From Lachnospiraceae bacterium (GTDB lineage Bacteria > Bacillota > Clostridia > Lachnospirales > Lachnospiraceae), in contig JAFZLB010000093.1 in assembly GCA_017551665.1 (NCBI GenBank), positions 1 to 42,161 of the forward strand: a stretch of DNA of 42,161 bases, read 5' to 3'. A program made the position numbers and the translations under genes. Of the stretch, positions 7,800-41,007 are shown one piece after another (the first letter of the stretch is position 1; every line of letters begins with the position of its first letter). The notes under the pieces were generated by a model, which saw only the letters and a list, made by a program, of their open reading frames with translations, searched no databases and was not told where the DNA came from.

Positions 7800-7842
7800 A
7801 ATAGTGAAACATCGAATCCGCGTTTTATACAAGAGAAGCGTT

Positions 7843-8223: not shown

Positions 8224-8653
8224 CAAACCGGAATTGGTACCTGCGCAGATACAGGCAGATCTTTTTATCGCGAAGGCCACCATAAAAGAGGCAAAGAGAC
8301 AAACGCCGCGTCTGTCCAAAACGATGAAGGGGCAGGCAGGGTATCATCTGCAACAGGCCACAGAGAAGTTGATTAAAATTCAATTGTACCGGTCAAACAA
8401 ATCACTGGATTTTAGCAAAATATTTAATCACAGAATCGGTGATTTAATTCTTTACGGAAGGTCTTTGGGAATTGATCTTATCGTTCCGCCATACATAGAA
8501 AATTATGCCGAGATCATTTCCGGGTGGGAAGCAGAGGGACGCTATGATCCGCATTTTGTTGTGCGGATTGATACCTTGGAAAAGTGCGCCGCCATTGTGT
8601 CGGAGTGGTTTGATTCCGTAACCAAACCGATGCGCCACCCTCACAGCCGTTAG
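8198..8653 (+). CDS. HEPN domain protein
   Basis: A 151-residue, mostly helical protein. The central segment GQAGYHLQQATEKLIKIQL and the later NHRIGDLILYGRSLG match the HEPN pattern, and GRYDPHF near the C-terminus corresponds to the RYP-like stretch of that family. I find no canonical Rx4-6H RNase motif: GRYDPH has only three residues between R and H. It may therefore be a non-nucleolytic HEPN, like the two-protein HI0073/HI0074-type nucleotidyltransferase systems, and not a classic toxin. The start used is ATG 8198 with AAGGGAG upstream; an in-frame ATG at 8171 lies deeper in the MNT gene. Confidence 0.8.
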   Translation: MSGKKPLPDKPELVPAQIQADLFIAKATIKEAKRQTPRLSKTMKGQAGYHLQQATEKLIKIQLYRSNKSLDFSKIFNHRIGDLILYGRSLGIDLIVPPYIENYAEIISGWEAEGRYDPHFVVRIDTLEKCAAIVSEWFDSVTKPMRHPHSR

Positions 8654-8762: not shown

Positions 8763-9764
8763 TCAGTGCCCCTGCAGCGCTTCCGGGAGCCGTTTCTTCA
8801 GTGCTTCCGTGTCCATCCATTCCGTGTTGGTGGCGGAGCTGTAGACAAAGCCCTCCGGAACCGGCTTCCCGCCGGGCACGATCTCCACATCCCCTTTGAA
8901 ATAAATCTGCGGGTAAATGATGTAATGCCTGTCGTATTCGTAGGTGTAAGGCGCGTCCTCCGCCGTCACCATGACCTCGTCGAGCTTCTCCCCGGGACGG
9001 ATGCCGACTTCCCTTGTGCCGATGCCGGGCGACATGGCCTCCGCCAGATCTTTGACATAAAAGGAAGGGATTTTGGAAATAAAAGTCTCTCCGCCTTTCG
9101 CGTTGGCCAGCGCGTGCATCACGAGCGCCACACCCTCTTCGAGCGAAATCCAGAAGCGGGTCATCCGGTAATCCGTCACCGGCAGTTCCTTTTCGCCCCG
9201 GTCAATCAGTTCCTTGAAGAAGGGGATGATGGAGCCGCGGCTGCCCGCCACATTGCCGTAGCGCACGATGGAAAAGTTCACGTCCTTGCCGCCGGCGTAG
9301 GAATTGGCTGCGATGAAAAGCTTATCGCTCACCATCTTCGTGGCACCGTAGAGATTCACGGGATTCACGGCCTTGTCCGTGGAGAGCGCCACCACGCGCT
9401 TCACCCCGCGGTTTAAGACCGCGTTGATGACGTTTTCCGCGCCGTTGACGTTGGTGCGGATGGCCTCGGAGGGATTATACTCACAGGCCGGCACCTGCTT
9501 TAAGGCCGCCGCGTGCACGCAATAATCCACCCCTTCCATCGCGCGGTCCAGCCTTGCGGCATCCCGCACATCGCCGATGAAGAAGCGGATCTGCTCCGTG
9601 CGCGAGGCAAAGGGTTCCTCCTGCGCCATGACGAACTGCTTATACTCATCCCTGGAATAAATGATGACCTTCTTCGGCTTCTCTTTGTTCAACAGATACG
9701 CGGCAAATTTCCGTCCGAAGGAACCGGTGCCGCCGGTGATCAGAATGGTTTTGTTTTCCAGCAT
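8763..9764 (-). CDS. pseB: UDP-N-acetylglucosamine 4,6-dehydratase (inverting), PseB-like
   Basis: PseB carries out the first step of pseudaminic acid synthesis and related pathways, converting UDP-GlcNAc to a UDP-4-keto-6-deoxy-AltNAc-type sugar using NADP. The 333-residue protein has ITGGTGSFG (9-17), the catalytic set STDKAVNPVNLYGATK with D130, K131, Y139 and K143, at the spacing known for H. pylori FlaA1, and the family signatures VRYGNVAGSRGS, MTRFWISLEEGV and GIRPGEKLDEV. It is the last gene of the minus-strand glycan operon, 18 nt after the FAD oxidoreductase. Later pseudaminic-acid genes (PseC, PseI, PseF) are not in the window, so the product could equally be another 2,6-dideoxy or amino sugar. 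Confidence 0.9.
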   Translation of the reverse strand: MLENKTILITGGTGSFGRKFAAYLLNKEKPKKVIIYSRDEYKQFVMAQEEPFASRTEQIRFFIGDVRDAARLDRAMEGVDYCVHAAALKQVPACEYNPSEAIRTNVNGAENVINAVLNRGVKRVVALSTDKAVNPVNLYGATKMVSDKLFIAANSYAGGKDVNFSIVRYGNVAGSRGSIIPFFKELIDRGEKELPVTDYRMTRFWISLEEGVALVMHALANAKGGETFISKIPSFYVKDLAEAMSPGIGTREVGIRPGEKLDEVMVTAEDAPYTYEYDRHYIIYPQIYFKGDVEIVPGGKPVPEGFVYSSATNTEWMDTEALKKRLPEALQGH

Positions 9765-9782: not shown

Positions 9783-11012
9783 TTATGTTTGTTCTGTTTT
9801 ATCATACCACAGGCACAGCTGCTTTGCCAGTTGCATGGCGCGTTCCACGACAACATCCGAATTGAAATGCGCATGCTCTCCCCAGCGTCCGAGACCGTAC
9901 ACCCGGTGTTCCTTCGCAAAGTCCAGCAGGCGCCGCATGACGGCGGGCTTTTCCAGGGTGTTCAGCGGGTAGGCATAGGGCCGGAGGAAGGCGCTTTTTT
10001 CGTCGGCCTCTCCCGCGAAGCGTTCCATACGCGTTTCCGTCCAGACGCCGCGGGCGCCCCGCAGGAAATTGTGACGCAAAAGGACGCGGTGATGCGGCAC
10101 GCTTTCGTCCGGCACATAGATCCAGTGCGCCTTGTCGTCCGTTTCCGTCGCGTCATAAGCAATCACGATGCCCGTGTGCTTCAGCTTTTGCAGGGATGCC
10201 TTCAGATCCTCCGGCATGCCCGGGAAGCGTTCCAGGGAGGTCCAGGGAACGGTCGTGACAATGAGATCCGCCTCATAAGCGCTGCCGTCCCGCGTCGTCA
10301 CCGCGCAGCGGTCAAAATCAATCTCCGCCACCCGTTTTCCGTACTGCAGCGCGTCTCCCAGCGCGTCCGCCATCCGCCGCCAGAGCTCCCCGTAGCCGTA
10401 TTGCTTCGGGTAATAAAAGCGCGCGTGCCCGGGCTGCTTCGCGTGGGCGCGGCCCGTGAGGCAGGAGCGCAGCGTATCCTCAAAGCTGACATCCGGCAGC
10501 TTCTCCAGCCAGTAGGTGCCGAGCGCGTCAAGCTCCTCCCCGAACATCTTGCGGTTGTATGGCAGCATGTATTCTTCCGCGATCCTGTCCCCCAGCTTCC
10601 AGCGGATCCAGTCCCGGAAGGCCGCGGGCGCTTCGCTGCCCGTGACGCAGCCCGCACGGGCGATGCTCATCAGGTATTCCACCTGCGAATCCGTGTCCAG
10701 CTGCCAGAGATTTGCCTCGAAGGGATGGGAGATCAGCTGTCCCCGGATGCGGATTCTGCTGTCGCGTTCAAACAACGCCCACTCCGTTTCCGGCATGAAG
10801 CGGAACAGAAACGCCGTTACTTCGGGCCGCACCACATCCAGAAAATGTCCGCCGCCGGTATCCAGGGGCGCGCCGTTCACTTCCGCGGAACGGCAGAGCC
10901 CGCCGGCTTCCCCTTCCGCCTCCAGCACCGTGATCCGGCTGACACCGCTGTCCTTCAGCGCATGGGCCAGGCTCAGCCCCGCGGGTCCCGCGCCGAGAAT
11001 CAATACCTTCAT
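9783..11012 (-). CDS. FAD-dependent NAD(P)-binding oxidoreductase, UGM/protoporphyrinogen-oxidase-like
   Basis: A 409-residue flavoprotein. The N-terminus has the dinucleotide-binding GAGPAGLSLAHAL (residues 7-19) followed by an acidic residue in VLEAEGEAGGLC, and the second motif DTGGGHFLDV. The fold family includes UDP-galactopyranose mutases and protoporphyrinogen oxidases. In glycan loci such proteins are often mutase-like, but the usual UGM active-site details cannot be confirmed by eye. The YPKQYGYGELWRRM segment is typical of the wider amine-oxidase-like group. It overlaps the GT-C gene by an ATGA (11009-11012), so the two are translationally coupled. Confidence 0.8.
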   Translation of the reverse strand: MKVLILGAGPAGLSLAHALKDSGVSRITVLEAEGEAGGLCRSAEVNGAPLDTGGGHFLDVVRPEVTAFLFRFMPETEWALFERDSRIRIRGQLISHPFEANLWQLDTDSQVEYLMSIARAGCVTGSEAPAAFRDWIRWKLGDRIAEEYMLPYNRKMFGEELDALGTYWLEKLPDVSFEDTLRSCLTGRAHAKQPGHARFYYPKQYGYGELWRRMADALGDALQYGKRVAEIDFDRCAVTTRDGSAYEADLIVTTVPWTSLERFPGMPEDLKASLQKLKHTGIVIAYDATETDDKAHWIYVPDESVPHHRVLLRHNFLRGARGVWTETRMERFAGEADEKSAFLRPYAYPLNTLEKPAVMRRLLDFAKEHRVYGLGRWGEHAHFNSDVVVERAMQLAKQLCLWYDKTEQT

Positions 11013-12553
11013 GGCTTTTCTTCCTCCGTGTTCAGACGAATGAATGCACCGTCCGCGGATTCCGCAAGCAGCGTCCGCAAATACGCCCGCATGGCAGGCG
11101 CGTACGCCTCCGGTGTCTTGTCCAGCTTCTCCTTCACACCCGCGCGGTTCAGATAAATCCCCTCATACATTTCGTAGCGCGCAAGCACATCCTCCAAAGT
11201 ATCCTCCGGTGCAATCGCGCCGTCAAAGACCACATCCATGCGGAAATACAGATACTCGGCACGGTAGGTGGTCTGATGCTCCAGGATGACGGAGCGGGGA
11301 TGAACCTCCCGGTACTCCGCCTCATAGGAAGTGCGCATCTTCTCATACGCCGTCGCCGGCACGCCCCCGCTCAGCCATGCATAGGCACAGGAAAACAGCG
11401 CCAGTGCCACAAGCGCCGTTGCGGCATATAATCCCCGGGGCTTTCTCCCGCTGCCGATCCGCTCCCACACAATCATGAGGAGCCCGATCAGAATCAGCGT
11501 TGTGGCCGGGGCAAAAAAGCGCGCGCTGAAGGGATCCATGCCGGAACGGAAGCGGATAAAGATAAAAATGATATCATAGGCCAGACCCGTGAGAATGAAC
11601 AGCGCCGCCTCGTCCGTCTTCTTCCTGCGGTACAGCAGATACAGCAGCAGCAAAAACAGCGCAAAGCAAAGCACCCGCTGCGCCTTGATCGTGTTGACGG
11701 CAAAGAGCGGGTACTCCTGCAGGTGAAAAAGGCTGAGCAGCTCATCCTGCAGGGCCTGATACAGCTCCGCTTTCAGCTCCCAGAGCTTATCCGTCATCTC
11801 CGCGCGGGGCAGCCCCGTCGCGTATCCGACCTTACGAAGATTCATGAGCAGATACGCGCCTTCCGTCAGCGCGGCGGCAAAGCCCGCGGCGGCAAAGCGG
11901 ATCAGCTTATTCTTTAGCGCGGCATCCCCGCGTTTCTTTCTGAGGAAATATGCCAGCAGGCAGAGCCAGACAAGGCCCGCGATGAAAGTCAGAAACAGCC
12001 CGAAGTAACGCAGCAGAAACAGCGCGGTCAGGTCCAGATACAGCAGCAGATACCAGCGTGTTTTCGGCACTTCCTCCGTGATGATTTTTGCCAGCAGGAA
12101 GGGCAGGACAATGAGGGCCGGCACAAAGGCGTTCTCGCTCAGCGAAACATCATAGATGCCGAGGATGCCCGCGTTCAGGAACAGCAAAGCGTAAGCCCAG
12201 GATGTTCTTTTGAAATGCAGTCCGAAAAACAGCAGCGCAAGCCCCACGAGCAGAGAGGCCAGAATTTTGGAGGCCAGAAACATGTTGGCAATGCCGGTGA
12301 TCTTCGCGACAGCCGCCACCAGCACGGGATAACCGACGGGCCACCAGGAAAAGAAGGCGGAACCGCCGGCGGCGCCGTTGAAATTCATGCCGTAGCCCTG
12401 CACCAGGGCATTGGCCTCGCGCAGGTAATTGGAGGCATCATAGGAAAATGTCGCCTCGCTGACATAGGCGCGGTCAAAGATCAGGAAGGTATAAAACGCC
12501 CAGAACAGAACAAGACAGACAATATAGCTGTATTTCTCACTGCGGGCGGACAT
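11009..12553 (-). CDS. GT-C family integral membrane glycosyltransferase (PMT/ArnT-like)
   Basis: The 514-residue protein has about ten membrane segments and resembles enzymes that use a polyprenyl-phosphate sugar donor on the outer face of the membrane. The first extracytoplasmic loop carries FSYDASNYLREA, where the aspartate is the likely catalytic residue of GT-C enzymes, and WWPVGYPVLVA matches the family PxGYP pattern. The C-terminal part (about residues 400-514) is a soluble region. It overlaps the neighbouring GT2 gene by 17 nt and that gene could make its lipid-linked donor. The sugar and acceptor are unknown. Confidence 0.8.
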   Translation of the reverse strand: MSARSEKYSYIVCLVLFWAFYTFLIFDRAYVSEATFSYDASNYLREANALVQGYGMNFNGAAGGSAFFSWWPVGYPVLVAAVAKITGIANMFLASKILASLLVGLALLFFGLHFKRTSWAYALLFLNAGILGIYDVSLSENAFVPALIVLPFLLAKIITEEVPKTRWYLLLYLDLTALFLLRYFGLFLTFIAGLVWLCLLAYFLRKKRGDAALKNKLIRFAAAGFAAALTEGAYLLMNLRKVGYATGLPRAEMTDKLWELKAELYQALQDELLSLFHLQEYPLFAVNTIKAQRVLCFALFLLLLYLLYRRKKTDEAALFILTGLAYDIIFIFIRFRSGMDPFSARFFAPATTLILIGLLMIVWERIGSGRKPRGLYAATALVALALFSCAYAWLSGGVPATAYEKMRTSYEAEYREVHPRSVILEHQTTYRAEYLYFRMDVVFDGAIAPEDTLEDVLARYEMYEGIYLNRAGVKEKLDKTPEAYAPAMRAYLRTLLAESADGAFIRLNTEEEKP

Positions 12554-13247
12554 GCTTTTCGTTTCCTTTTAACTGAAACAGAATCCGCAGCGCCTCCGTG
12601 ACGGAAGCGGCCTTCAGGCTGGATTTGCCTGCCCGGTAGTGAATCGGGACTTCGATCTGCCGGCAGTTCCTGCAATAAAACTTCATCTCGGTCTGGTACA
12701 TGTGTCCGGTGGACAGGAACTTGGAAAAATCAAACTGCGCAAGCACGTCACGCCGGAAGCCCTCAAAGCCGCTGGTCATGTCCTTCAGCTTCGTTCCGAG
12801 GACGAGGTTGGACAGCAGCGTCCCGCCGTAGGACAGGATCTTGCGGTAGAGCGGATCGTTCTTCATCCCGCCGCCCGGAATAAAGCGCGAGCCCCAGACA
12901 CAGTCGTACCCGGCCTGCAGCTTTTCGATGAACTGCGGAATCTCCCGCGGCAGATGGCTTCCGCCGCCGTCCATCTCAATGATGTATTCCGCGCCGTCTT
13001 CTAAGGCCTGCCGGTATCCCTCCAGATAGCAGCTGATCACACCGGTGGATTGCGCAAAAAAAATGCACTTCACCCGGCCGGTGTGCTCAAAGGAACGGAT
13101 GATCTCCTCCGTGCGGTCCTTGGAATAGGCGTCCACCACGGGATACAGATACAGTGCATCATACGGCAGCGCAAGAATCTGCTGTATGACCCGTTTCATC
13201 GTGCGTTCTTCATTTGCCACAGGCATTACAACAATCGTCTTTTTCAT
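12537..13247 (-). CDS. DPM1-like GT2 glycosyltransferase (polyprenyl-phosphate sugar synthase type)
   Basis: A 236-residue GT-A fold protein without membrane segments. It starts IVVMPVANEERTMKRVI (residues 4-20), has the donor-metal region EMDGGGSHLPREIPQF, and SRFIPGGGMKND, which are features of the dolichyl-phosphate-mannose-synthase group. The usual DADLQHPP-like motif is altered to EMDGGGSHL. Members transfer a sugar from a nucleotide donor to undecaprenyl phosphate on the cytoplasmic face. Its stop lies inside the GT-C gene, so the two probably function together. The sugar cannot be deduced. Confidence 0.85.
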   Translation of the reverse strand: MKKTIVVMPVANEERTMKRVIQQILALPYDALYLYPVVDAYSKDRTEEIIRSFEHTGRVKCIFFAQSTGVISCYLEGYRQALEDGAEYIIEMDGGGSHLPREIPQFIEKLQAGYDCVWGSRFIPGGGMKNDPLYRKILSYGGTLLSNLVLGTKLKDMTSGFEGFRRDVLAQFDFSKFLSTGHMYQTEMKFYCRNCRQIEVPIHYRAGKSSLKAASVTEALRILFQLKGNEKHVRPQ

Positions 13248-13297
13248 GGTCTTCTAACTGTAGCAGAAACCGCTCTTTGTTTCAATCCCGCGGGAAA

Positions 13298-14344
13298 TCA
13301 GCGGAAATGATCCCGGTACCACCAGAGCATCCTGTAATACGCGTAAAAACGCGGATGCGATTTCATCTGCATGTTGATCAGCTTCTTTTCCTCCGGATGC
13401 ACTTCTTTTTCATAGTACGGATTGCTGCGGAACAGCGGGAAGCAGCAGCGCATTTCTTCCCCGAGCGCCTTGCAGAAGCGGTAGCCGCCTTTCACATGCG
13501 GACGCGCCTGCATGGCGGAAAAGAGCGTGTTGATGTAAAACAGCCGCGTGAAGCTGTATTCGATTTCATCGCGGCAGGAGGAGAGCGTCCCGTCCGCCTT
13601 TGCGAGGGCCAGGAGCATCCGCCCCGCGACCGCACGGTCCTCCAGACGCTTCAGGCTCACGGTATGCACCGTGGAGCTGTCGTGCTGGTAATAGTAATAC
13701 AGGGGTTCCTCCAGATAGGCGTAACGTCCGACACGCGCCATGAGATACGCGCCGACGGCATTGTCCTCGTAAAAGATCTTCTCCGGAAAGAGCTTTCCCC
13801 CCGGACAGGCGGCAGCCGCCTGCAAAAGAAGTTCCCGGCGGAAGATTTTGACGGCCAGGGAACCGGGGGCCAGCACACGCGCTTTCAGGCTCTCCTTTGT
13901 CCGTTCGCCGGCCTGCTCCCTTGTGCTGTTTTTGTCCACTTTCCCGATTTCAAAGCTGTGGGATGTCACCATGGAATAATCACAGCCGGCGGCGTCCGCG
14001 TGTTCCTTTTCCGCGAGCGTCAGCAGCTTCTCATAGTATTCCGGTGCCACCCAGTCGTCCGCGTCGATAAAGGAAATCCACTCCCCCCGGGCCTGCTTCA
14101 ATCCGCTGTTCTTTGCGCCTCCCTGGTGAAGGTTTTCCGGATGCCGCAGGGCAAAAAAATGCCCGGGATGCTTCGCCTCATAGGATTGCAGAATCTCAAA
14201 GGATGCATCCGTCGAAGCGTCATCCACGGCGATGATTTCCACATCATCCGGCGGAATCGTCTGGTTCAGCAGCGAATCCAGGCAAAAGGTCAGTTTTCCC
14301 TCCGCCGCCATATTATATACGGGTACGATCACACTCAGTCGCAT
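13298..14344 (-). CDS. GT2 family glycosyltransferase
   Basis: The start is ATG 14344, which puts the GT2 N-terminal strand MRLSVIVPVYN at residue 1; the frame is open further upstream but overlaps the promoter. The 348-residue protein has VDDASTDAS (residues 40-48), GGAKNSGLKQARGEWISF and the DxD-like DADDW, all typical of the GT-A catalytic domain, and then a helical C-terminal part with no clear membrane segment. It is the first gene of the minus-strand operon, 50 nt before the next gene. The start codon is only 9 nt from a good -10 box and has no ribosome site, so the transcript may be leaderless. Confidence 0.9.
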   Translation of the reverse strand: MRLSVIVPVYNMAAEGKLTFCLDSLLNQTIPPDDVEIIAVDDASTDASFEILQSYEAKHPGHFFALRHPENLHQGGAKNSGLKQARGEWISFIDADDWVAPEYYEKLLTLAEKEHADAAGCDYSMVTSHSFEIGKVDKNSTREQAGERTKESLKARVLAPGSLAVKIFRRELLLQAAAACPGGKLFPEKIFYEDNAVGAYLMARVGRYAYLEEPLYYYYQHDSSTVHTVSLKRLEDRAVAGRMLLALAKADGTLSSCRDEIEYSFTRLFYINTLFSAMQARPHVKGGYRFCKALGEEMRCCFPLFRSNPYYEKEVHPEEKKLINMQMKSHPRFYAYYRMLWWYRDHFR

Positions 14345-14353
14345 CGGAATTTG

Positions 14354-14362
14354 ATTATACCA
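14354..14362 (-). promoter_or_regulatory. Extended -10 promoter of the minus-strand glycan operon
   Basis: On the minus strand the sequence reads TGTGGTATAAT, with TATAAT at 14359-14354 and TGG just upstream. Only 9 nt separate it from ATG 14344. There is no good -35 hexamer; a 22-bp palindrome (14375-14396) lies where it should be. Confidence 0.75.
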
Positions 14363-14374
14363 CACTCCCCTCCT

Positions 14375-14396
14375 GTCCTGCCATCCATGGCAGGAC
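14375..14396. promoter_or_regulatory. Perfect palindrome overlapping the -35 region, possible operator
   Basis: Two 10-nt arms (GTCCTGCCAT and ATGGCAGGAC) pair perfectly around a 2-nt centre. The palindrome covers the -35 region of the minus-strand promoter and could be a repressor or activator site. It also lies between two divergent transcription units. Nothing else is seen in 14345-14565 beyond a 12-bp palindrome (GCCGGATCCGGC at 14479-14490). Confidence 0.55.
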
Positions 14397-14519
14397 GCAA
14401 AACAGTCGGGTCGGTAGTATCGCACATCCGTGTACAGATACCCCGAAACCGCCGCGGAAGGCAAACCGGCGGGGAGATGCCGGATCCGGCGGGGCGGGTG
14501 GCGGAACAGAGGAAGAGTG

Positions 14520-14528
14520 TGCTATACT
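14520..14528 (+). promoter_or_regulatory. Extended -10 promoter of the 14566 gene
   Basis: TGC followed by TATACT (14523-14528), about 40 nt before the start, in the same extended -10 form as other promoters here. No -35 hexamer is evident. Confidence 0.5.
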
Positions 14529-14565
14529 GGTTTTTGAATTTTGGGAGCGGAACGGTTTTTCATGC

Positions 14566-15693
14566 GTGAGCAGAATGAGTAAACGAATCTACGTCTGTCA
14601 TACCTTTTATCATGTCTATGTCAGCTGCCTGAAGGAGCTGCATTTGCTGCACCGGGCGGATCTTTCGCGGGAAAAGGCGGCGGAGGGCAGCGGCGCTTTG
14701 GGGCGTGCGCATCTGATGCTGTCAAAGATGTCCAATGACTTTTCCGGCATGCTGCCGCGCGCAAAGGAATGCCCGCTGTTTGAAGAGGTGTTTGAATTCG
14801 ACGAAAAGCGGGACAGCTTCTTTCCGGAGCTCGCCCCACTGAAGGAGAATACCGGCAGCATTTTGAAAAACATGCGCAACCGCATCCGCTTCTGCAAACG
14901 CTTCCCGGAGCTGCTGGAGCCTTACATTCCGGTGGATTTCCGTTCCTATGATGACATATACGTCTTCTGTGACATTGATCCCGTGGGCTATTATCTGAAC
15001 GGCAAAAAGATTCCGTATCACGCCGTGGAGGACGGACTGGACACGCTCGTTTATGCCAATGACGCCGTGTATGACAACAAAAGCTTTTTCGGACTGAAAA
15101 CATGGATGGCCGCGCGGGGATGGATTCATATCCAGAGCGGCTATTCAAAGTATTGTCTGGATATGGAGGTCAATGATCTTTCCAAAATCAAAAGGACCAA
15201 CAAAAAAATGAAGGAGTTGCAGCGCGCGTTACTGACGGCGGAACTGGCGCAGACGGACAAAAAGCTGCTGCTGGATCTGTTTGTGGCGGATATCGGGAAA
15301 CTGCGCGCACAGCTTGCGGATGAGACGGACAGAGACCGTGTTCTGGTGCTTTCGGAACCCTTATGCGAAGACCGCGAAATACGGAAAAAGCTGCATCTGG
15401 ATATCATTGAGGCCTGGCGTCATACGGACAAAGGAGAAGCCGCCGTTTATTTCAAGCAGCACCCGAGAGATGACGTGGACTATACGCGGATTCTTCCGGA
15501 CGATGTCATCCTGCTGGACAAAAGCTTTCCGATGGAGATGCTGTATCTGATCGAAGGACTGCACTTTGCGCGCGTCGTCACCGTCTACACCGTGCTGAAC
15601 GCCTTTGAGATCGCGGACGAAAAGATCATGCTGGGGGACGCGTTCATGGACAAATACGAAGACCCGTCAAAGCACTGGATGGGGGAGAATTAG
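14566..15693 (+). CDS. Putative GT52/sialyltransferase-like glycosyltransferase
   Basis: A 375-residue cytosolic protein with no membrane segment. It begins with KRIYVCHTFYHVYVSCL, a start pattern seen in GT52-like transferases. In the middle is HAVEDGLDTL and later YFKQHPRDDVDY. These resemble the D/E-D/E-G and H-P motifs shared by bacterial GT-B sialyltransferases (GT38, GT52, GT80), and a third motif may be the serine-rich DKSFPMEML. TagF-like glycerophosphotransferases also have HP motifs, so the family is not certain. The gene stands alone and converges on the carrier-protein gene with a 10-nt gap. The start could be GTG 14566 or ATG 14575; neither has a strong ribosome site. Confidence 0.7.
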   Translation: MSRMSKRIYVCHTFYHVYVSCLKELHLLHRADLSREKAAEGSGALGRAHLMLSKMSNDFSGMLPRAKECPLFEEVFEFDEKRDSFFPELAPLKENTGSILKNMRNRIRFCKRFPELLEPYIPVDFRSYDDIYVFCDIDPVGYYLNGKKIPYHAVEDGLDTLVYANDAVYDNKSFFGLKTWMAARGWIHIQSGYSKYCLDMEVNDLSKIKRTNKKMKELQRALLTAELAQTDKKLLLDLFVADIGKLRAQLADETDRDRVLVLSEPLCEDREIRKKLHLDIIEAWRHTDKGEAAVYFKQHPRDDVDYTRILPDDVILLDKSFPMEMLYLIEGLHFARVVTVYTVLNAFEIADEKIMLGDAFMDKYEDPSKHWMGEN

Positions 15694-15703
15694 CGCCTGC
15701 CCT

Positions 15704-15937
15704 TCAGTTTGTCTGTTCCAGATATCTTTGCACCAGACGCCACATGTGTTCCGCCGACACGAAGTGATCCGGATCAACATCCTCTCCGTCAATCTCCACA
15801 CCGTACGTGGCTTCGATCGCCTCGATGATATCAAAGATGTCCAGGGAATCCAGGACGCCGCTTTCCACAAGATCATCCCCCGACGCAAAGTCCACATGCG
15901 GTTTCAGCTGTTGCAGCATGGCAAGAAATTCGTTCAT
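15704..15937 (-). CDS. Acyl carrier protein (DltC-like)
   Basis: A 77-residue acidic protein with the carrier fold. The phosphopantetheine attachment motif is ESGVLDSLDIFDII with S31 as the modified serine, in the usual DSL setting. It overlaps the adenylation gene by an ATGA, the stop of one joining the start of the other, so the two are coupled. The likely role is to receive an activated amino acid or acyl group and present it to a transferase. It is short and lacks any extra domains; it is not the fatty-acid AcpP type judging by its genomic partners. Confidence 0.88.
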   Translation of the reverse strand: MNEFLAMLQQLKPHVDFASGDDLVESGVLDSLDIFDIIEAIEATYGVEIDGEDVDPDHFVSAEHMWRLVQRYLEQTN

Positions 15938-17457
15938 TTCACCGGGCTTCCTTTCACATATTCCTCTTTCAGCTTTTGGCGGTCGATTTTGCCGTTCAGA
16001 TTCATGGGCATGACGGCGGTGTGCACCAGACGCGTCGGGATCATGTAATCGGGCAGCTTTTCCCGGAGATATTCCAGCAGCGTCTGCTCCGCGACATCGC
16101 CCGCATAAACGGCGATGATATCATTCGTTTCATGATCAAACAGGCAGCAGGCATTGCTCACGCCTGCGGCGGCTCGCAGGTGGGTTTCGATTTCCCCGAG
16201 TTCAATCCGGTGCCCCAGCCGTTTGATCTGATCATCCTTTCTGCCTGCAAAGATGAGGTTTCCGTCCGCGTCCTCATAAGCGAGGTCACCGGTGCGGTAC
16301 ATGGTTTCCGTCCAGGCGGTCTGTGCGGGATTCTGCACGAAGACCGCTGCGGTTCTTTCCGGCGCGTTGTAGTAACCCTGCGAAAGACACTGTCCGGTGA
16401 TGCAGAGTTCCCCGATCTCGCCGGGGGCGCAGCGCCTGTCATTTTCAAAGAGCAGGATCGTGCTGTTTTCGCAGGCCGCACCCAGCGGAAGCGCTTCGTC
16501 ATCCGCGAAGTCGCGGCGGATTTCATAATAGGTGCAGGCGTAGGTCGCTTCCGTCGGACCGTACATATTGACATAGAGCGCGTCCGGGATGTGCTTGCGC
16601 CAGACGTTCAGATGCTTGCAGGGCATGACCTCGCCGCAGAAGATCACGGTTTTCACGCAGTCCGGCACGCAGACATCAAAGGCCTTGCAGTTGACGACGT
16701 TGCAGAGCGCGGACGGCACCCAGATGAGGGTGTTGATCGCATGCTCCGCCACGTAGCGCAGGATTTTCTTCGGGAAGGTGTAGTAGGTCTTTGGCGGAAT
16801 GAACGTCGTTGCGCCGGTGTACAGCGGAATGAACAGATCCGGCACGGAGGCGTCAAAATAAAAGGGTGCCTGATTGCAGAAGGAGCTGTGTTCATCAAAG
16901 CCATAGCGCTCACAGATCCATTCCGTGAAATCCGTGACGGCAAGATGGGAAATGGTCACGCCCTTCGGGACGCCGGTGGAACCGCTGGTGAACAGGACGT
17001 AGAGCAGATCCGTTGATTTCATCCGCCGACGGATGCCGGTAAGCAGTGCCTCATCGGGCGTGACCGAAGAGGCCTCGTCCAGGGTCAGGACCGCCGCGGA
17101 AGTCTGAAGCTGCAGCGCCTTGTCATGGCTGTCTGCGTCACAAAGAATCACGGCGGGGTCCAGGCAGTCCGTAATCAGCCGGACACGGTCCGCGGGCATC
17201 CCCGCGTCAACGGGAACGTAAAAGCATCCCGCGTAGACGGCACCGAGAAAGGCCGCGAGACAGGCGGCACGCTTTTCCATATAGACGAGCACCGGCCGGC
17301 AGGGCGCGGTTTGTCCGGCGACGGAAGTGCCGATGGCGCGTGCCTCGCGGGACAGGCGCTCATAGGAATAAGACTCCGTCATGTCGGCAAACGCGGCCTT
17401 TTCCGGGCAGCGCCGCAGTGTCTGTTCAAAATAATCCAGAACGGTGTGATGCATCAT
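15934..17457 (-). CDS. Amino-acid adenylation enzyme (DltA/NRPS A-domain-like)
   Basis: A 507-residue ANL-superfamily enzyme that activates a carboxylic acid with ATP and loads it on a carrier protein. All main motifs are present: LFTSGSTGVPKG (155-166), YGPTE (299-303), YRTGD (387-391) and GRKDDQIKRLGHRIELGEIE, with the C-terminal lysine of NGKIDRQKL. The pocket motif has FYFDASVPD, where D202 matches the aspartate that holds the alpha-amino group in amino-acid-activating domains, so an amino acid is the likely substrate; its identity cannot be read. It is coupled by ATGA overlaps to the carrier protein and to the acyltransferase. D-alanylation genes (dltB, dltD) are absent, so this is probably not the dlt system. 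Confidence 0.9.
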   Translation of the reverse strand: MMHHTVLDYFEQTLRRCPEKAAFADMTESYSYERLSREARAIGTSVAGQTAPCRPVLVYMEKRAACLAAFLGAVYAGCFYVPVDAGMPADRVRLITDCLDPAVILCDADSHDKALQLQTSAAVLTLDEASSVTPDEALLTGIRRRMKSTDLLYVLFTSGSTGVPKGVTISHLAVTDFTEWICERYGFDEHSSFCNQAPFYFDASVPDLFIPLYTGATTFIPPKTYYTFPKKILRYVAEHAINTLIWVPSALCNVVNCKAFDVCVPDCVKTVIFCGEVMPCKHLNVWRKHIPDALYVNMYGPTEATYACTYYEIRRDFADDEALPLGAACENSTILLFENDRRCAPGEIGELCITGQCLSQGYYNAPERTAAVFVQNPAQTAWTETMYRTGDLAYEDADGNLIFAGRKDDQIKRLGHRIELGEIETHLRAAAGVSNACCLFDHETNDIIAVYAGDVAEQTLLEYLREKLPDYMIPTRLVHTAVMPMNLNGKIDRQKLKEEYVKGSPVK

Positions 17458-18257
17458 ATTTCTCCAAAGCCTTCAAACAGCGATTCCCGCGACACCGTGA
17501 AGTCATACAGCAGCCGGCAGCGGTTGTGCAGGATGTCCTCCCGGATCGGATCAAAGCTTTTGCCGAGCTGTACCACGCGGCTTTCAATCCCCTGAAAGCG
17601 GTGTACCGTGGCGATTCCCTTCTCTTCCAGAACCGCGCCGATCCGGTTGAACTGTTCCGTCGTGCCCACTTCCGGCCGTCGCGCGGCGTAATCACAGGTA
17701 CGTGCTTCCCCCCGGCCTTCGGCGGTGACATAGGTTCCCGTAAATTGCTTCGCAAAGCGGTAAGGCACCCGGCAGACCGTTTCGACATAATGCACGAAGG
17801 TCATGGAGTGCACATAGTCCGTGCCCAGCATGAGCTGTGTGACATTCCGCTCCTTACAGTAGGCAAAGGGCGAATCTTCGCCGAAGGAATGCGTATTCGT
17901 CATGCCGCAGAGCAACTCCCGGTCCTTCCCCCATACGGCAAAGGAATGCATGGGGTGCAGGGTTCTGCGAAAATCCCCGCGGGAAAGTGCCGTGTTGCCG
18001 AGGACACCGGTCGTGCCTTTCGTATGCAGATAATCATAATGCCCGTGGTTGCTGAATTCAAAGCTGAACACGGGCAGCAGCAGCGTGCCTTCTTCTCCGA
18101 GGACGGACTGAAACGCGTCGATCAGCAGGGAGGGGTCAAAGCGCATTCCGTTCTTTTTGCAGAGGAACGCGAGGCGGACGGTTTCCGAGGAAAGCCAAAC
18201 AGAGTCCCCTGTGCGCAGATCAAACGACGCTGCAAATTCGCGGTAAAAATCCTTCAT
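17454..18257 (-). CDS. AAC(3)-family N-acyltransferase
   Basis: The start is ATG 18257, which overlaps the stop of the DUF4910 gene as ATGA; the frame extends further upstream but only as an unlikely N-terminal tail. The 267-residue protein matches the aminoglycoside N3-acetyltransferase fold family: the TLLLPVFSF strand, RRTLHPMHSFAVWG, THSFGEDSPFAYC and LMLGTDYVHSMTFVHYVE. These motifs are shared by antibiotic-resistance enzymes and by sugar-modifying enzymes in glycan loci. The setting beside an adenylation enzyme and a carrier protein points to transfer of an acyl group to an amino sugar, and not to drug resistance. This is inference. Confidence 0.85.
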   Translation of the reverse strand: MKDFYREFAASFDLRTGDSVWLSSETVRLAFLCKKNGMRFDPSLLIDAFQSVLGEEGTLLLPVFSFEFSNHGHYDYLHTKGTTGVLGNTALSRGDFRRTLHPMHSFAVWGKDRELLCGMTNTHSFGEDSPFAYCKERNVTQLMLGTDYVHSMTFVHYVETVCRVPYRFAKQFTGTYVTAEGRGEARTCDYAARRPEVGTTEQFNRIGAVLEEKGIATVHRFQGIESRVVQLGKSFDPIREDILHNRCRLLYDFTVSRESLFEGFGEI

Positions 18258-19603
18258 GGTTCCGGCAGTCCTGTCTCCTGCGTTGTCAGCAGACCGTGTT
18301 CTTTCAGTGATTCGATCACGGGAATCAGATCCCTGACCGGCACCTCCGCGCGTTCCGCAATCCATAAGAGATCATTGCTGCCGTCCGCGTAGGCGATGAA
18401 CAGGCGCATGGGCTGCAGGGCGTCATAGATTCCTTTTTTGCTGACGGTGGGGTACAGACCGCGTTTGCCGAGCTGCGGCTCGCAGGGAACCGTCATCCGG
18501 TAATGCCGGTTGTATTCCAGGGCCTCGATGACCTCGCACATGACATCGAAGCTGCCCTGTAAGCCCTCCGGCGAAACGATGCTCATGTTGTCCGCGGAGG
18601 TGTGATATTCCGGATACTGCGCAAAGCGGGAGCGGCTGAAACAGACCATGGGCAGATTGACATTCGCCGCGTTGTACTGGCGCTCGTCGCTGCCGCCGCC
18701 GCCTTCCAGAAAGCGGTAGGTGCGCACGTTCTCCCTTGTCCGCAACACCTGTGCCAGCACGCGGTCCGCGAGCGTGTTTCCATATTTGGACTGTGTATGC
18801 GAATAGGCTTTTGCGTCCCCGACACAGGAGAGGACAAAGCCCGCCTTCATGTGCTTGCGTAAATGCTCCAGATGCGTGCTGAGGTATGAGATGGCGCCGA
18901 TTGTCTCCGGATACAGCAGGAAGCGGTAGGCATACCTGCGGCGGGGCATGGCAGCCACATGCCGGATGAGCGCCGTCATCAGCGCCGGGCCGGAACATTC
19001 GTTGTTGGCCATGGAGGAGTGACAGATGTAGGAGGAGAAGAGGACTTCGCCATCCCCCATACCCTCCGTCGCGGGGACCAGCAGCTCGCCCGTGGTGAGC
19101 GAACCTTCCTTCAGTTCTGAATCAATGAACATCCGGTAATTGCCCTCCGGCAGGGCATCCAGCTGCTTTTTCGACATACAGAAGCCATAGCGTTCTTTGT
19201 AATACGAGGTCACGTAGGGAATGACCTCCGGATTGTCTTCCTGGGTATAGACGTACTGCTTTAATTCCTCCAGCGGAACGACGCGGTCGACGGGGGTGGC
19301 ATAGCCCAGCACATGCAGATTGTTGTTCCGCATGTCGATGACCCGGCTTCCGTCCGGCCCTTCGATATAGGCTTCCCGGATCACCCATTCCTTCGGCACC
19401 GTCCAGTCAAAGACCCGTGTGCCGCTGGGGATTTCGGAAACGGTAAAGGACAGTCCAGCGTCCGCGATCTCTTCATTGACCATCCGGAGCGTCTGACGGT
19501 TCCCCTCGCCGGTGAGCGAGCGCGTGAGCGGAAAAATCCCGGCCGCGAAATCGTATGCGCGCTGCCCTTCAGGGGCGGCATTGTTCTTTGCTTCTTCAGA
19601 CAT
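18254..19603 (-). CDS. DUF4910/DUF2172 aminopeptidase-like protein
   Basis: A 449-residue protein starting at ATG 19603. It matches the aminopeptidase-like DUF4910 family: an N-terminal region with FPLTRSLTGEGNRQTL, the insert TVPKEWVIREAYI, then YICHSSMANNECSGP, GGGSDERQYNAANVNLP and QYPEYHTSADN, where H, D and H residues are likely metal ligands. The last 70 residues look like a winged helix. As I recall, a related gene (Cj1295) in Campylobacter jejuni affects an acyl decoration on flagellin pseudaminic acid. It is the first gene of the four-gene cassette. The start codon lies only 7 nt from a -10-like box, with no ribosome site. Confidence 0.85.
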   Translation of the reverse strand: MSEEAKNNAAPEGQRAYDFAAGIFPLTRSLTGEGNRQTLRMVNEEIADAGLSFTVSEIPSGTRVFDWTVPKEWVIREAYIEGPDGSRVIDMRNNNLHVLGYATPVDRVVPLEELKQYVYTQEDNPEVIPYVTSYYKERYGFCMSKKQLDALPEGNYRMFIDSELKEGSLTTGELLVPATEGMGDGEVLFSSYICHSSMANNECSGPALMTALIRHVAAMPRRRYAYRFLLYPETIGAISYLSTHLEHLRKHMKAGFVLSCVGDAKAYSHTQSKYGNTLADRVLAQVLRTRENVRTYRFLEGGGGSDERQYNAANVNLPMVCFSRSRFAQYPEYHTSADNMSIVSPEGLQGSFDVMCEVIEALEYNRHYRMTVPCEPQLGKRGLYPTVSKKGIYDALQPMRLFIAYADGSNDLLWIAERAEVPVRDLIPVIESLKEHGLLTTQETGLPEP

Positions 19604-19687: not shown

Positions 19688-21460
19688 TTGGAGCGAAAAA
19701 GCAGGAACATCAGGCATTGGACCGTGTTTGCCGCCGGCGCGCTGCTTGCGTTGCAGCTGCTGGTGTTCCTTGTGTTCCGCGGAGAATCCTACATCCAGGT
19801 GCATGACAATCTGGATCTGTTTCCGGCACATTTTGAGATGATGAAGCGTGCGGGCGCGTTTTTTGCGGGCAATGCCACGCTGCCGATGCTGCACGGGATT
19901 TCCAGGGATCTCTTCGGCTCCGAATGGTCTTTGTACAATATCTGGTATGCTTTTTTACCGGGCATTGCGGCCTATTTCACCGGCTACTTTCTGAAAATCC
20001 TCATCGGCACCGCGTCTTTTGTGCTGTTGGCGCGGGAGGTGTACGGGGAGCGTTTTGCGGCGCATCGCGGCATTTTCCTGCTGAGCGGTCTGGCCTTTGG
20101 CATGATTCCCGTCTTTCCGGCCTACGGCATCGCCTTCACCTCCGTGCCGCTCATTGTCTGGCTTTTGGTCAGGCTGTACCGCGCAAAGACGTGGAAGGAA
20201 GCGCTGCCGTATTATGCGGGCGTATTCTGTTACCCGCTGCTTTCGTATTTTTCCTATCACGGCTTTTTCATTCTCTGCTATATGGTGCTTGCAGTGATCA
20301 TTTTGTGGCTGCGCGACAGACGCTTTCCGAAGCGGTTTTTTTTCGCGACCGGCATTTTGTCCGTAGGCTTTATGCTCTTTGAGTGGCGGCTGTTCCGGGC
20401 CATGCTCTTTGGCAACACCGTCACCATCCGCACGACCATGGAGCACGGCGAGGTGTCGTTCGGAGAGGCGATGCGGCTGGCAGTGGAGGAGTTTTTCGTG
20501 CCCTCCGTTTATAACACGGAGTCTTTTCATTCCGCGGATACCCATACCCTGATCGCCCTGCCCGTCGTTCTGGCGGGGCTTGTGGTCTGCAACGCGCTGC
20601 ATCTGCGCAGGGGGGAAAAGAAAAAAATCCTCACGGACCCGCTGAACGGTCTGGTGCTGTGGATCCTGCTCAACTGCCTGAATTACGGGCTGTATCAGTT
20701 CGCGCCGTACCGGACGCTGTTTGAGACACTGGTGCCGAAACTCACGGGATTTGAGTTTTCGCGGACCAACTTCTTCAACTCCTTTTTGTGGTACGCGGCC
20801 CTGGCGGTGGTGCTCTGCCGTCTGGCTGCCTCCGCAAAGGGAAAACTGCGGATGGCACCCGGCCTCGCGGCCCTTGCGGCGGCGCTTGTCGTGATGTTTT
20901 TTCCGCAGGTATACAATGACTTTTATCATACCTGTTATAACCAGGCCTACCGCATTCTGAAGCGGCAGGAGACGAGTACGTTGAATTACCGGGAGTTTTA
21001 TTCGGCGGCGTTTTTTGACCGCATCAAAGAGGACATGGGCTATGCGGGCGAGTGGTCCGCGGCCTACGGCATGCACCCTGCGGTGTTGCAATACAACGGC
21101 ATCGCCACGGTGGACGGCTATCTCGGGATGTATTCCGTGGAATACCGGGAGCAGTGGGGGCGCGTGATCGCCCCGGCCATGGCATCTTCCCCCTGGCTGA
21201 AGGCTTATTTTGAGGGCTGGGGCGCGAGGGCCTATCTCTATTCCGGCTCCGACGAAAACACCTACGCGCCGCTGCGTGTGATGGCATTGCAGGATGAACG
21301 CCTTTCGGCGGATGCGGCGGCATTGAAGGAACTGGACTGCCGTTACATCTTCTCCCGCGTGCGCTTCTCCAATGAGACGGAGGAGGGTCTGTCGCTGAAA
21401 GAGGGGTATGAGGATGAACAGGGGCCCTATGTGATTTATGTGTACGAGATAACGGGGTGA
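19688..21460 (+). CDS. Large polytopic membrane protein, DUF6044-like
   Basis: About 590 residues if translation starts at TTG 19688, 12 nt after AGGGGGGAG; the frame is open further upstream but would lie before the predicted promoter. It has roughly ten to eleven membrane segments and a C-terminal soluble domain of about 170 residues. The first loop contains the motif VHDNLDLFPAHFEMMKRAG and later LPMLHGISRDLFGSEWSLYN, which are typical of the DUF6044 family as I know it. The acidic HDN motif in the first loop recalls GT-C transferases, so a lipid-linked sugar transferase is possible, but no function is established. It ends 15 nt before rarA. Confidence 0.8.
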   Translation: MERKSRNIRHWTVFAAGALLALQLLVFLVFRGESYIQVHDNLDLFPAHFEMMKRAGAFFAGNATLPMLHGISRDLFGSEWSLYNIWYAFLPGIAAYFTGYFLKILIGTASFVLLAREVYGERFAAHRGIFLLSGLAFGMIPVFPAYGIAFTSVPLIVWLLVRLYRAKTWKEALPYYAGVFCYPLLSYFSYHGFFILCYMVLAVIILWLRDRRFPKRFFFATGILSVGFMLFEWRLFRAMLFGNTVTIRTTMEHGEVSFGEAMRLAVEEFFVPSVYNTESFHSADTHTLIALPVVLAGLVVCNALHLRRGEKKKILTDPLNGLVLWILLNCLNYGLYQFAPYRTLFETLVPKLTGFEFSRTNFFNSFLWYAALAVVLCRLAASAKGKLRMAPGLAALAAALVVMFFPQVYNDFYHTCYNQAYRILKRQETSTLNYREFYSAAFFDRIKEDMGYAGEWSAAYGMHPAVLQYNGIATVDGYLGMYSVEYREQWGRVIAPAMASSPWLKAYFEGWGARAYLYSGSDENTYAPLRVMALQDERLSADAAALKELDCRYIFSRVRFSNETEEGLSLKEGYEDEQGPYVIYVYEITG

Positions 21461-25300: not shown

Positions 25301-25931
25301 AAAGCTTTCAAAAACCGTTGCGGAGATCGAAATCGAGGATCCGCTGGATTTTCTGACGGTTGCGGAGAAGGAGGAGTATATCCGGAAGCATCTTCCGCGG
25401 GAGGAAGGAGTAGTCCCGGATCCTCCGGAGGATGCGGCCGGGGACAATGCGTTTACGGAAGAGGAGATGCTTCCGGAGGAGGAAATACTGCCGGAGGAGG
25501 AAACGATTCCGGAAGAAGACTTTTTTTCGGAGGAACCGGAACAGGTGGGAAGAAGAGATGAGGCAGCGGAAGTGCCCGTGAGCGGGGACCGCACACTGTC
25601 GATTGCCGTAAAGCTCGGCGCGCTGGTGATCGCGCTGCTGCTGACCTATATTGTCTGGCTGTTGTTTTTGAGACCCGTTGTCCGCAGTGTCTTCGGATGG
25701 AACAGTTGGGAGGCTGTGCAGGAAGAAGAGAGCGCGCAGGAAATGCACGTGCTGACGACTTCGCAGCTCAATCTGCGCAACGGCCCGTCCACACAGACCG
25801 GAGAGATTGTGGTGACGGTGCCGGAGGGAACCAGGCTCACAAAGATCGCGGAAGCGGACGGCTGGACGACGGTGCTGTACGAAGGACAGACGCTGTATTG
25901 TTCCAGCGAATATCTGAAGGCGGCGGAATAG
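25287..25931 (+). CDS. Single-pass membrane protein with C-terminal SH3-like domain
   Basis: A 214-residue protein starting at ATG 25287, inside the 3' end of trxA. Residues of about 30-85 are a highly acidic, proline-containing region (repeats of the type LPEEEILPEEETIPEED). One membrane helix lies near residues 107-127 (KLGALVIALLLTYIVWLLF). The last 65 residues form an SH3b-like module (LNLRNGPSTQTGEIV, LTKIAEADGWTTVLYEG). The acidic part is probably cytoplasmic and the SH3 domain outside, where such modules bind cell-wall peptides. It sits 2 nt before murI, a cell-wall precursor gene, which supports a link to the wall but does not prove it. Confidence 0.8.
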   Translation: MSSDKKLSKTVAEIEIEDPLDFLTVAEKEEYIRKHLPREEGVVPDPPEDAAGDNAFTEEEMLPEEEILPEEETIPEEDFFSEEPEQVGRRDEAAEVPVSGDRTLSIAVKLGALVIALLLTYIVWLLFLRPVVRSVFGWNSWEAVQEEESAQEMHVLTTSQLNLRNGPSTQTGEIVVTVPEGTRLTKIAEADGWTTVLYEGQTLYCSSEYLKAAE

Positions 25932-25933
25932 GT

Positions 25934-26722
25934 ATGGCGCGAATCGGTTTTTTTGATTCCGGTGTCGGCGGCATCACCGTATTGCATGAGGCAATGCGGA
26001 TGCTTGAGGCGCCGGAATACCTGTATTACATGGATACGGCCCATGTTCCCTACGGCACGAAGACCGCGGAGGAAATCAGGGCTTACGCGGCGGACATCGT
26101 TTCCTTTTTGCGGGAGAAAGGCGCGGATCTCATCGTCATTGCCTGCAATACGGCGACGAGTGCCGCGGCGGCGGCGCTCCGGGAGCGCTTCGATCTCCCG
26201 ATCGTGGGAATGGAGCCTGCCGTGAAGCCCGCGCTTGCGCTTACGCCGGAAGAGGGGCGCGACCGGGTGCTGGTGCTGGCGACGCCGCTGACACTGCGGG
26301 AGCAGAAGCTGCAGGATCTGATCGCGCGCTACGACGCGGCGCATCGCGTGGATTTGCTGGCACTGCCGGAACTCGTGACCTTTGCGGAGGAAGGGCAGTT
26401 TGACACGGAAGCGGTGCGGGCGTATCTGTGCGAGAGCCTGCGGGAGACGGAAACGGAGCGTTACCGCGCCGTGGTGCCGGGATGTACCCATTTCCGGTAT
26501 TTTCTGCCCCTGCTGAAGGAACGGTTTCCGGAAGGAACCGCGTTCATCGACGGAACGGAAGGAACGGTGCGTCGGATCGCGGAGCTGCTGCAACTGCCCC
26601 TTGCGGAACGGGCACCGGCGCCGGCAAAGGTGACGTACTATGATTCCGGCAGGGAAATCACGGAAGAGGATGAATTGCGGCGGATTGCCGCGTTACAGGA
26701 ACAGTTGGGAGGTTTATTTTAA
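25934..26722 (+). CDS. murI: Glutamate racemase
   Basis: MurI makes D-glutamate for peptidoglycan by a cofactor-independent two-base mechanism. The 262-residue protein starts at ATG 25934, putting the landmark GFFDSGVGG at residues 5-13. The two catalytic cysteines are C71 in ACNTATS and C184 in GCTHF, both at expected places. Its stop overlaps the proS start by one base (TAATG), so the two genes are coupled. Confidence 0.96.
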   Translation: MARIGFFDSGVGGITVLHEAMRMLEAPEYLYYMDTAHVPYGTKTAEEIRAYAADIVSFLREKGADLIVIACNTATSAAAAALRERFDLPIVGMEPAVKPALALTPEEGRDRVLVLATPLTLREQKLQDLIARYDAAHRVDLLALPELVTFAEEGQFDTEAVRAYLCESLRETETERYRAVVPGCTHFRYFLPLLKERFPEGTAFIDGTEGTVRRIAELLQLPLAERAPAPAKVTYYDSGREITEEDELRRIAALQEQLGGLF

Positions 26723-31390: not shown

Positions 31391-31426
31391 CAGGCTTTTT
31401 GCGATTCATATAAGATATAGGAGATG

Positions 31427-32359: not shown

Positions 32360-32368
32360 ACAAGCCGT

Positions 32369-33127: not shown

Positions 33128-33130
33128 GGG

Positions 33131-35679: not shown

Positions 35680-35692
35680 GCGGGAAAAGGGT

Positions 35693-37592: not shown

Positions 37593-37601
37593 GAGGCGCC
37601 T

Positions 37602-40994: not shown

Positions 40995-41007
40995 GGGGCA
41001 TTTCCGC

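Follow-up and report, generated by a model that had tools for sequence, protein, structure and literature searches.

It has been reported that Cj1295 is required for the di-O-methylglyceroyl form of pseudaminic acid (Pse) in Campylobacter jejuni (PMC3068675). After loss of Cj1295 the flagellin carries Pse5Ac7Ac or the acetamidino form, and the authors proposed that Cj1295 removes the C5 acetamido group; their locus table gives Cj1295 as an aminopeptidase and Cj1296/7 as an N-acetyltransferase. Over 16,130 C. jejuni genomes, the presence of Cj1295 goes with that of pseudaminic acid genes (PMC13130089). Here we analyse a stretch of 42,161 nucleotides from a gut Lachnospiraceae bacterium (contig JAFZLB010000093.1, assembly GCA_017551665.1), called the window below, which makes up an entire contig of the host's draft genome (2.57 Mb, 91% complete). 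On its minus strand, a run of four genes (19603..15704) codes for a DUF4910/HTH_47 protein, an AAC(3)-family protein, an adenylation enzyme and a carrier. We consider it probable that these four genes act together as a cassette that exchanges N-acyl groups on a pseudaminic-type (nonulosonic) sugar.

The likeness to C. jejuni is that a protein of the DUF4910 type is linked to an acyl group of pseudaminic acid that varies, with the N-acetyltransferase Cj1296/7 in the same locus (PMC3068675). According to the published description, on which this comparison is based, flagellin is the target in C. jejuni and carries the 2,3-di-O-methylglyceroyl group, whereas the window has an adenylation enzyme with an alpha-amino-binding aspartate and its nearest transferase is GT52-like. 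A further likeness is found with CA_C2195 of Clostridium acetobutylicum (structure 3k9t), where a DUF4910 protein stands with an acyl carrier protein, aminosugar N-acetyltransferases and a nonulosonic acid synthase; the table given for it has an ATP-grasp ligase and lists no stand-alone adenylation enzyme (PMC4000134). In our alignment, Asp195 of 3k9t corresponds to Asn200 of the window protein. In 2014 the same paper connected DUF4910, in the company of genes for carriers and acetyltransferases, to modified carbohydrates. Acyl groups on pseudaminic and legionaminic acids vary widely between bacteria. Glycine and N-acetylglutamine have been reported on pseudaminic acid and an N-methyl-glutamyl group on the legionaminic acid of Clostridium botulinum flagellin (PMC5207245), legionaminic acid of Vibrio vulnificus carries an alanyl group (PMC7371886), and the flagellar glycosylation islands of Aeromonas contain carrier and AMP-dependent synthetase genes (PMC7874193). 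Among the titles and abstract beginnings of the matches listed in our literature searches, there was no paper on the four-gene unit, its classes, or the sharing of adenylation enzymes with MBOAT systems. The four-gene set would be a minimal system and, if the proposed function is true, would offer one way in which surface sugars come to vary among gut Lachnospiraceae and their flagellated relatives.

At all three junctions of the cassette, the stop codon of one gene overlaps the ATG of the next in an ATGA: at 18254..18257 between the DUF4910 and AAC(3) genes, at 17454..17457 between the AAC(3) and adenylation genes, and at 15934..15937 between the adenylation and carrier genes, all on the minus strand. 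Purine-rich stretches lie upstream of the three inner starts. The start of the DUF4910 gene at 19603 is unsure, since no clear ribosome site was seen there and the frame stays open upstream to 19894. An earlier note, made from the sequence alone, had described four ATGA-joined genes with an adenylation aspartate, D202, and a carrier serine, and the overlaps, the family matches and both residues were all seen again in our analysis.

The adenylation gene (15934..17457, minus strand) codes for a stand-alone DltA-like protein of 507 amino acids, which is a predicted amino acid adenylation enzyme with an alpha-amino-binding aspartate. It passes the general amino acid adenylation model TIGR01733 with 353 bits (cut-off 317). 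D202 (codon 16852-16854) sits in the motif FDASVPD and aligns with Asp197 of the solved DltA, and Cys274 aligns with DltA Cys269, a residue that helps to select D-alanine, for which a literature search for support gave nothing. The best single-enzyme NCBIfam match is also DltA, with 318-332 bits, below the cut-offs of 476 and 560; on the DltA equivalog model TIGR01734 the protein reaches 318 bits against 560. Ten-residue specificity codes were read from alignments. The window enzyme reads D A P W I C M Y A K, a code without a known counterpart to our knowledge, so no amino acid is assigned to it, and the tryptophan in fourth position is common to 41 of the 42 adenylation proteins compared below and carries little information. 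The carrier (15704..15937, minus strand, 77 amino acids) has Ser31 in the usual place, within GVLDSL (codon 15845-15847), and aligns with four other cassette carriers; its PF00550 match of 24.7 bits is weak, yet over the cut-off of 20.8. A stand-alone adenylation enzyme with a small carrier, and the equivalents of Asp197 and Cys269, make this pair similar to that of DltABCD, from which the cassettes differ in having an AAC(3)-type transferase in place of MBOAT.

The AAC(3)-family protein (17454..18257, minus strand, 267 amino acids) is a candidate carrier-to-sugar acyltransferase. It belongs to the AAC(3)-fold superfamily (PF02522, 105 bits, cut-off 25) and matches the solved YokD, AAC(3) and FrbF, and residues H101, P102, S105, T153 and E159 are invariant among five cassette sequences. 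Since adenylation and carrier proteins are typical of small peptide or antibiotic pathways, and the AAC(3) family includes resistance enzymes, the four genes might instead belong to such a pathway, with the AAC(3) protein serving for self-protection. We regard this as extremely unlikely: the NCBIfam AAC(3) resistance models give 40, 36 and 21 bits against cut-offs of 270, 420 and 480, which does not place the protein among the resistance enzymes, no peptide synthetase genes were seen among the window open reading frames (ORFs) scanned, and the neighbours are sugar genes. Next to the adenylation gene, Pfam scans of the window ORFs tried gave neither condensation nor thioesterase domains; the relatives were scanned only partly.

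The first gene (18254..19603, minus strand) codes for a protein of 449 amino acids of an M28-like fold family, with a DUF4910 domain, a DUF2172 insert and an HTH_47 domain, and is a candidate sugar N-deacylase. All its Pfam scores are over the cut-off (PF16254 289 bits, PF09940 117 bits, HTH_47 (PF16221) 75 bits), and it matches the solved 3k9t at 5.6e-93. Both histidines among the 3k9t zinc ligands His189, Asp195 and His324 are kept, as His194 and His333.

In the route that we propose, the DUF4910 protein would take off an N-acyl group that is already present, or make it replaceable; the group meant is most probably the one derived from GlcNAc that becomes N5. The adenylation enzyme would activate an amino acid and load it onto the phosphopantetheine of the carrier, the AAC(3)-family protein would transfer the acyl group to the freed amino group, and a glycosyltransferase, for which the GT52-like gene described below is a candidate, would place the sugar on a surface glycan. 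UDP-GlcNAc supplies N5 of pseudaminic acid through its acetamido nitrogen, and N7 is due to PseC and PseH. A new group at N5 would need prior removal of the acetyl group, which suits a zinc-hydrolase-like DUF4910 protein and agrees with the proposal of the Cj1295 authors. Activation, carrier loading and transfer to an amino sugar, as put forward in the earlier note, are supported at the level of prediction. The same note had DUF4910 acting later; we find action before the transfer more likely, given that loss of Cj1295 leaves Pse5Ac7Ac or the acetamidino form (PMC3068675). What the data show is which genes these are, that they are coupled, that the set recurs, what lies around it, and that the host genome has Pse genes. 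All catalytic steps are inferred, as are their sequence, the position on the sugar and the amino acid used, for which a small neutral one would be a guess.

The same set of genes was found in other genomes. In a family-wide sample made with hidden Markov models, which is the less biased of our samples, there were 17 strong DUF4910 matches in 16 of 299 genomes, and five of the 17 had the full set: the window and the loci L034, L037, L038 and L042 (L numbers are our own). At L038 (7976-10096), a NeuB-SAF protein is fused to a radical SAM/SPASM protein. A larger collection comprised 94 distinct DUF4910 loci after removal of three duplicates, most of them chosen for similarity to the query; the 80 named loci in it are the top-ranking ones of 581 confirmed, and the NNE motif is part of one scan pattern, which tilts the counts towards close relatives. 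Using thresholds that we set ourselves (250 bits for adenylation, distance limits of 6 kb and 10 kb), 20 of these loci had the full set, one lacked only a carrier that could be found, 42 had AAC and no strong adenylation match (L117 and L124, with split or cut adenylation genes, are counted here), and 31 had neither. Adenylation in the absence of AAC occurred in 0 of 94, and wherever a strong same-strand adenylation match lay within 6 kb, AAC was present (21 of 21 loci). Because the same four families co-occur in other genomes (20 of 94 distinct loci), the cassette is more than a chance arrangement. The gene content is constant in six orders, DCAP, DAPC, DCPA, CAPD, DPCA and DPAC (D, DUF4910; C, AAC; A, adenylation; P, carrier). 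Among the named relatives, unclassified Lachnospiraceae predominate, and some records bear the names Agathobacter, Petralouisia muris, Acetatifactor and Eubacterium. One further set, L199, came from a phylum sample of 398 genomes; it belongs to a different family and lies beside a PseF/PseG-like gene and NeuB.

Sugar genes are frequent around the cassettes. Nonulosonic acid genes lie within 10 kb in ten of the 20 full sets; nine sets have GT52 or its GT2 partner, and 15 have genes of at least one of the two kinds. For comparison with related enzymes we used 21 cassette rows, that is, the 20 full sets without L179 (split adenylation gene) and with L175 (no carrier found) and L199; near-copies or shared neighbourhoods occur among them (L115/L164 and L129/L143). 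In the stretch examined, nonulosonic acid genes were present in 11 of these rows, and these or GT52-type/GT2 genes in 17. Of 21 related non-cassette adenylation rows, three had nonulosonic or GT52/GT2 genes (two of them being DUF4910 loci with an adenylation gene farther away), while 16 had MBOAT-type genes. The association with pseB-type genes anticipated in the earlier note is thus borne out, and the cassette was not found mainly beside unrelated peptide genes, an outcome that the note had named as fatal to its proposal.

In the window itself, a gene for PseB, the inverting UDP-GlcNAc 4,6-dehydratase, lies at 8763..9764 on the minus strand (TIGR03589, 509 bits, cut-off 408). Elsewhere in the host genome, PseC (458 bits) is encoded on contig C77, and PseF (285 bits), PseI (497 bits) and PseG (167 bits) on contig C71, all over their NCBIfam cut-offs. 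Since PseB, C, F, G and I are encoded, the host should make CMP-pseudaminic acid. The host PseF is fused to a GNAT domain (PF13302, 44.9 bits), and no PseH model was listed at E 1e-20. The PseG match spans profile positions 28-197 of 280, and the pseG ORF contains a repeat insert. This dispersed repeat (L030, 17800-18130, contig C71) has 29 DNA matches in the host genome including itself, some of them split copies; the copy in pseG is in frame (about residues 31-126 of the translated stretch), and another with 87% identity, at 19751-19869, lies near the start of a rimM-like ORF. A GT52/polysialyltransferase-like gene (14566..15693, plus strand, likely ATG at 14575) runs towards the carrier gene in convergent orientation; it is a candidate nonulosonic acid transferase whose two Pfam matches exceed the cut-off (PF07922 47.7 bits, PF07388 26.9 bits). 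GT52 enzymes are sialyltransferases, and tblastn detected homologues of this gene beside cassettes in relatives, the one in L118 being just below the Pfam cut-off (23.8 of 26.1). It is the best local candidate for attaching the host pseudaminic acid. Next to it, a GT2 glycosyltransferase gene (13298..14464, minus strand, PF00535 120 bits) is its partner in relatives: in L042, L118, L129, L143, L175, L177 and L046, homologues lie next to the GT52-type gene or close to it. The statement in the earlier note that there is no flagellin holds for the window. It does not extend to the genome, which has five Flagellin_N matches, though no MptE-like/Maf protein was found in the draft by PF01973 or with the L136 protein as query; PF01973 does detect the Maf-like genes of L109, L136 and L140.

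A set of 19 control loci consisted of 18 of the 19 adenylation matches that rank next after the five cassettes in the family search (G391 was skipped) and the host locus L102. DUF4910 and AAC were present in 0 of 19, and nonulosonic-type matches of at least 120 bits in 2 of 19, one of them merely an aminotransferase. An MBOAT-like gene was present in 16 of 19, the exceptions being L088, L089 and L098; the three MBOAT queries were confirmed by Pfam. L089 has two large ORFs of peptide-synthetase size with further adenylation matches, and in the MBOAT locus L086 a gene with a formyltransferase domain (10976-11833) lies between the adenylation and carrier genes. No MBOAT gene was found in any of the 21 cassette rows (0 of 22 cassettes in a recount); MBOAT-like matches in five DUF4910 loci lacking the full set (L106, L107, L128, L148 and L153) blur the split. 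Given MBOAT in 16 of 19 controls and in none of the cassettes, related loading enzymes thus appear to serve two outputs, Dlt-type MBOAT loci and DUF4910/AAC(3) loci. The same data bear on the alternative that the four genes are a Dlt-like D-alanylation system without MBOAT, acting on teichoic acid or a wall glycan. DltA being the best single-enzyme match, together with the kept Cys269 equivalent, speaks for it, but both DltA cut-offs are missed, MBOAT is absent from all 21 cassette rows, and the host owns another DltA-like gene adjoining an MBOAT gene (L102); we consider it very unlikely. L102 (contig C34) is a second stand-alone adenylation gene of the host, with code DAKWAGLGRK, accompanied by MBOAT and an Asp/Glu-type racemase and lying outside any DUF4910 set.

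The adenylation enzymes fall into classes by their codes. The DAPW class comprises the window, L037, L183 and L135 and no MBOAT locus; in L135 a GNAT gene lies between the adenylation and carrier genes. Seven cassettes and five other loci make up the DN(L/V)(W/F) class, including L038, with its radical SAM protein fused to NeuB, and L034, where the carrier gene is followed by a radical SAM gene that is an unfused relative of the radical SAM part of L038. In the DAKWAG class, an Asp/Glu-type racemase (PF01177) lies nearby in 6 of 6 rows versus 0 of 36 others (Fisher 1.9e-7). The link spans two cassettes and four MBOAT loci, although, because the six rows form one clade, they are not independent events; both cassette racemases exceed a cut-off for cysteate racemase and the one for amino acid racemases in general. 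In the DVKW class, a BtrK-like decarboxylase was found in 3 of 7 rows (the L113 cassette and the MBOAT loci L099 and L100) and in 0 of 35 others; it is also present in L117, a cassette with a split DVK-type adenylation gene. The L113 protein has BtrK as its best solved match (2.3e-36; next family 3.3e-22), and L108, a locus with PseB, PseC, AAC and no strong adenylation match, gave a 29% match to the BtrK-like decarboxylase. BtrK is the decarboxylase of carrier-bound glutamate in the butirosin pathway (BtrI/BtrJ/BtrK/BtrH), which modifies an amino acid on a carrier and then transfers it to an amino sugar. The likeness to that pathway lies in this logic and in the decarboxylases of four relatives (L113, L117, L099 and L100), the L113 protein being the one compared; the window differs from it in having no match to the decarboxylase, in its other ligase and transferase families, and in a target that is probably a surface sugar.

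The SM(L/T)W class, in which serine replaces the amino-binding aspartate, has three cassettes and four MBOAT loci. The earlier note's choice of an amino acid as cargo therefore suits the window enzyme, which keeps D202, and cannot be carried over to the whole family, as 3 of the 21 cassette adenylation enzymes have serine there. All three serine-code cassettes lie in an island with flagellin, a Maf-like protein (PF01973; the one of L136, a locus of the cultured Petralouisia muris strain NM01_1-7b, scores 122 of 670 on the PseD model), a methyltransferase and Pse genes, which recalls the Cj1295-dependent di-O-methylglyceroyl pseudaminic acid of C. jejuni (PMC3068675). L199 has a code of its own, DLQW. 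Because some adenylation classes go with accessory genes, the cassette core seems to accept different acyl groups, and the same set with different loading enzymes in relatives suggests a route to varied sugar decoration. We tentatively put forward, as a possibility that we find somewhat less likely than not, a combinatorial acyl code: a DUF4910/AAC(3)/carrier core would combine with at least five adenylation classes and with tailoring by racemase, BtrK-like carrier decarboxylase, methyltransferase or GNAT, most classes being common to MBOAT systems, to give for example 4-aminobutyryl or D-acidic-aminoacyl pseudaminic acids. In the literature examined, we met no report of these two kinds. A match between code and accessory genes would allow the acyl group to be predicted from sequence.

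In a quick tree of the 42 adenylation proteins, with some long branches, the cassette label changes at least 12 times, with eight changes forced by well-supported branches, and it is not clustered beyond chance (82 of 500 shuffles were as low). The adenylation proteins of the window, L037 and L183 form a supported cassette-only clade. A joint history of the four proteins was tried and rejected: over 19 sets, leaving out L164 (a near-copy of L115), L175 and L179, their pairwise distances were uncorrelated (Spearman -0.10 to 0.17, permutation p 0.10 to 0.73). We read the pattern as a probable exchange of parts and not as evidence of one ancient operon.

Several of our observations weigh against N-acyl exchange on a pseudaminic-type sugar. 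AAC(3)-family enzymes usually use acetyl-coenzyme A. The uncorrelated distances do not support a long joint inheritance of the four genes, and the link between class and accessory gene is partial, because the decarboxylase is absent from 4 of 7 DVKW rows and the methyltransferase from the four serine-code MBOAT rows. In the DUF4910 protein the zinc ligand set of 3k9t is incomplete, with Asn200, followed by Glu201, at the place of Asp195, and in the family the usual M28 catalytic residues are replaced, as described for 3k9t (PMC4000134, section 6). These replacements weaken the deacylase step and leave its order and the sugar position as matters of reasoning. They also suit an alternative in which DUF4910 is an acyl-transferring or scaffold subunit that removes nothing, and an already free amino group is acylated, namely that of the PseC product, the future N7; transacylation was indeed suggested in the paper on CA_C2195 (PMC4000134, section 10). 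Asparagine at the Asp195 position, with glutamate next to it, was found in 17 of 17 DUF4910 sequences of the family sample, and overall asparagine in 96 of 100 distinct sequences (aspartate in three, one unread), a count in which one search pattern was biased to the motif. We nevertheless hold this alternative to be quite unlikely, since the GNAT domain fused to PseF would take the PseH role at N7 and the known Cj1295-dependent group is at C5 (PMC3068675).

The genomic surroundings of N-acyl exchange are also imperfect. PseB alone is near the cassette (6 kb), with the remaining Pse genes on other contigs; in the stretch examined, no Pse or GT gene was seen for 5 of the 20 full sets, of which two lie on short stretches; and L183, closely related to the window set, has no Pse genes in the 21 kb examined and lies alone among housekeeping-type genes. 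It could therefore be that AAC(3) and the adenylation/carrier pair acylate another amino sugar, such as a 4-amino sugar of the exopolysaccharide whose cluster lies in the window at 31-42 kb, and that the Pse link is indirect. This seems unlikely to us, as Pse or other nonulosonic genes occur in 11 of the 21 cassette rows and in 3 of the 21 others, and Pse-type matches lie within 10 kb in 42 of the 94 DUF4910 loci, with a threshold of 120 bits that may be lax and admit other sugar aminotransferases or dehydratases.

Regarding the other genes of the window, the ORF 13214-14569 on the plus strand was rejected as a gene, its matches being antisense to the GT2 gene, and was replaced by 13298-14464 on the minus strand. 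Beyond this gene, a minus-strand group comprises a GT2 protein, a protein of 514 amino acids with no Pfam match over the cut-off, an FAD amine-oxidoreductase-type protein and PseB. The exopolysaccharide-type cluster (31424-42015) includes a polyprenyl glycosylphosphotransferase, EpsG and several glycosyltransferases and runs in the direction of the contig end. In the glutamate racemase ORF (25697-26722), the family match starts at residue 83, which points to an N-terminal extension or a later start. A small nucleotidyltransferase gene (7804-8223) overlaps an ORF of 160 amino acids with no Pfam family (8171-8653), in a toxin-antitoxin-like layout.

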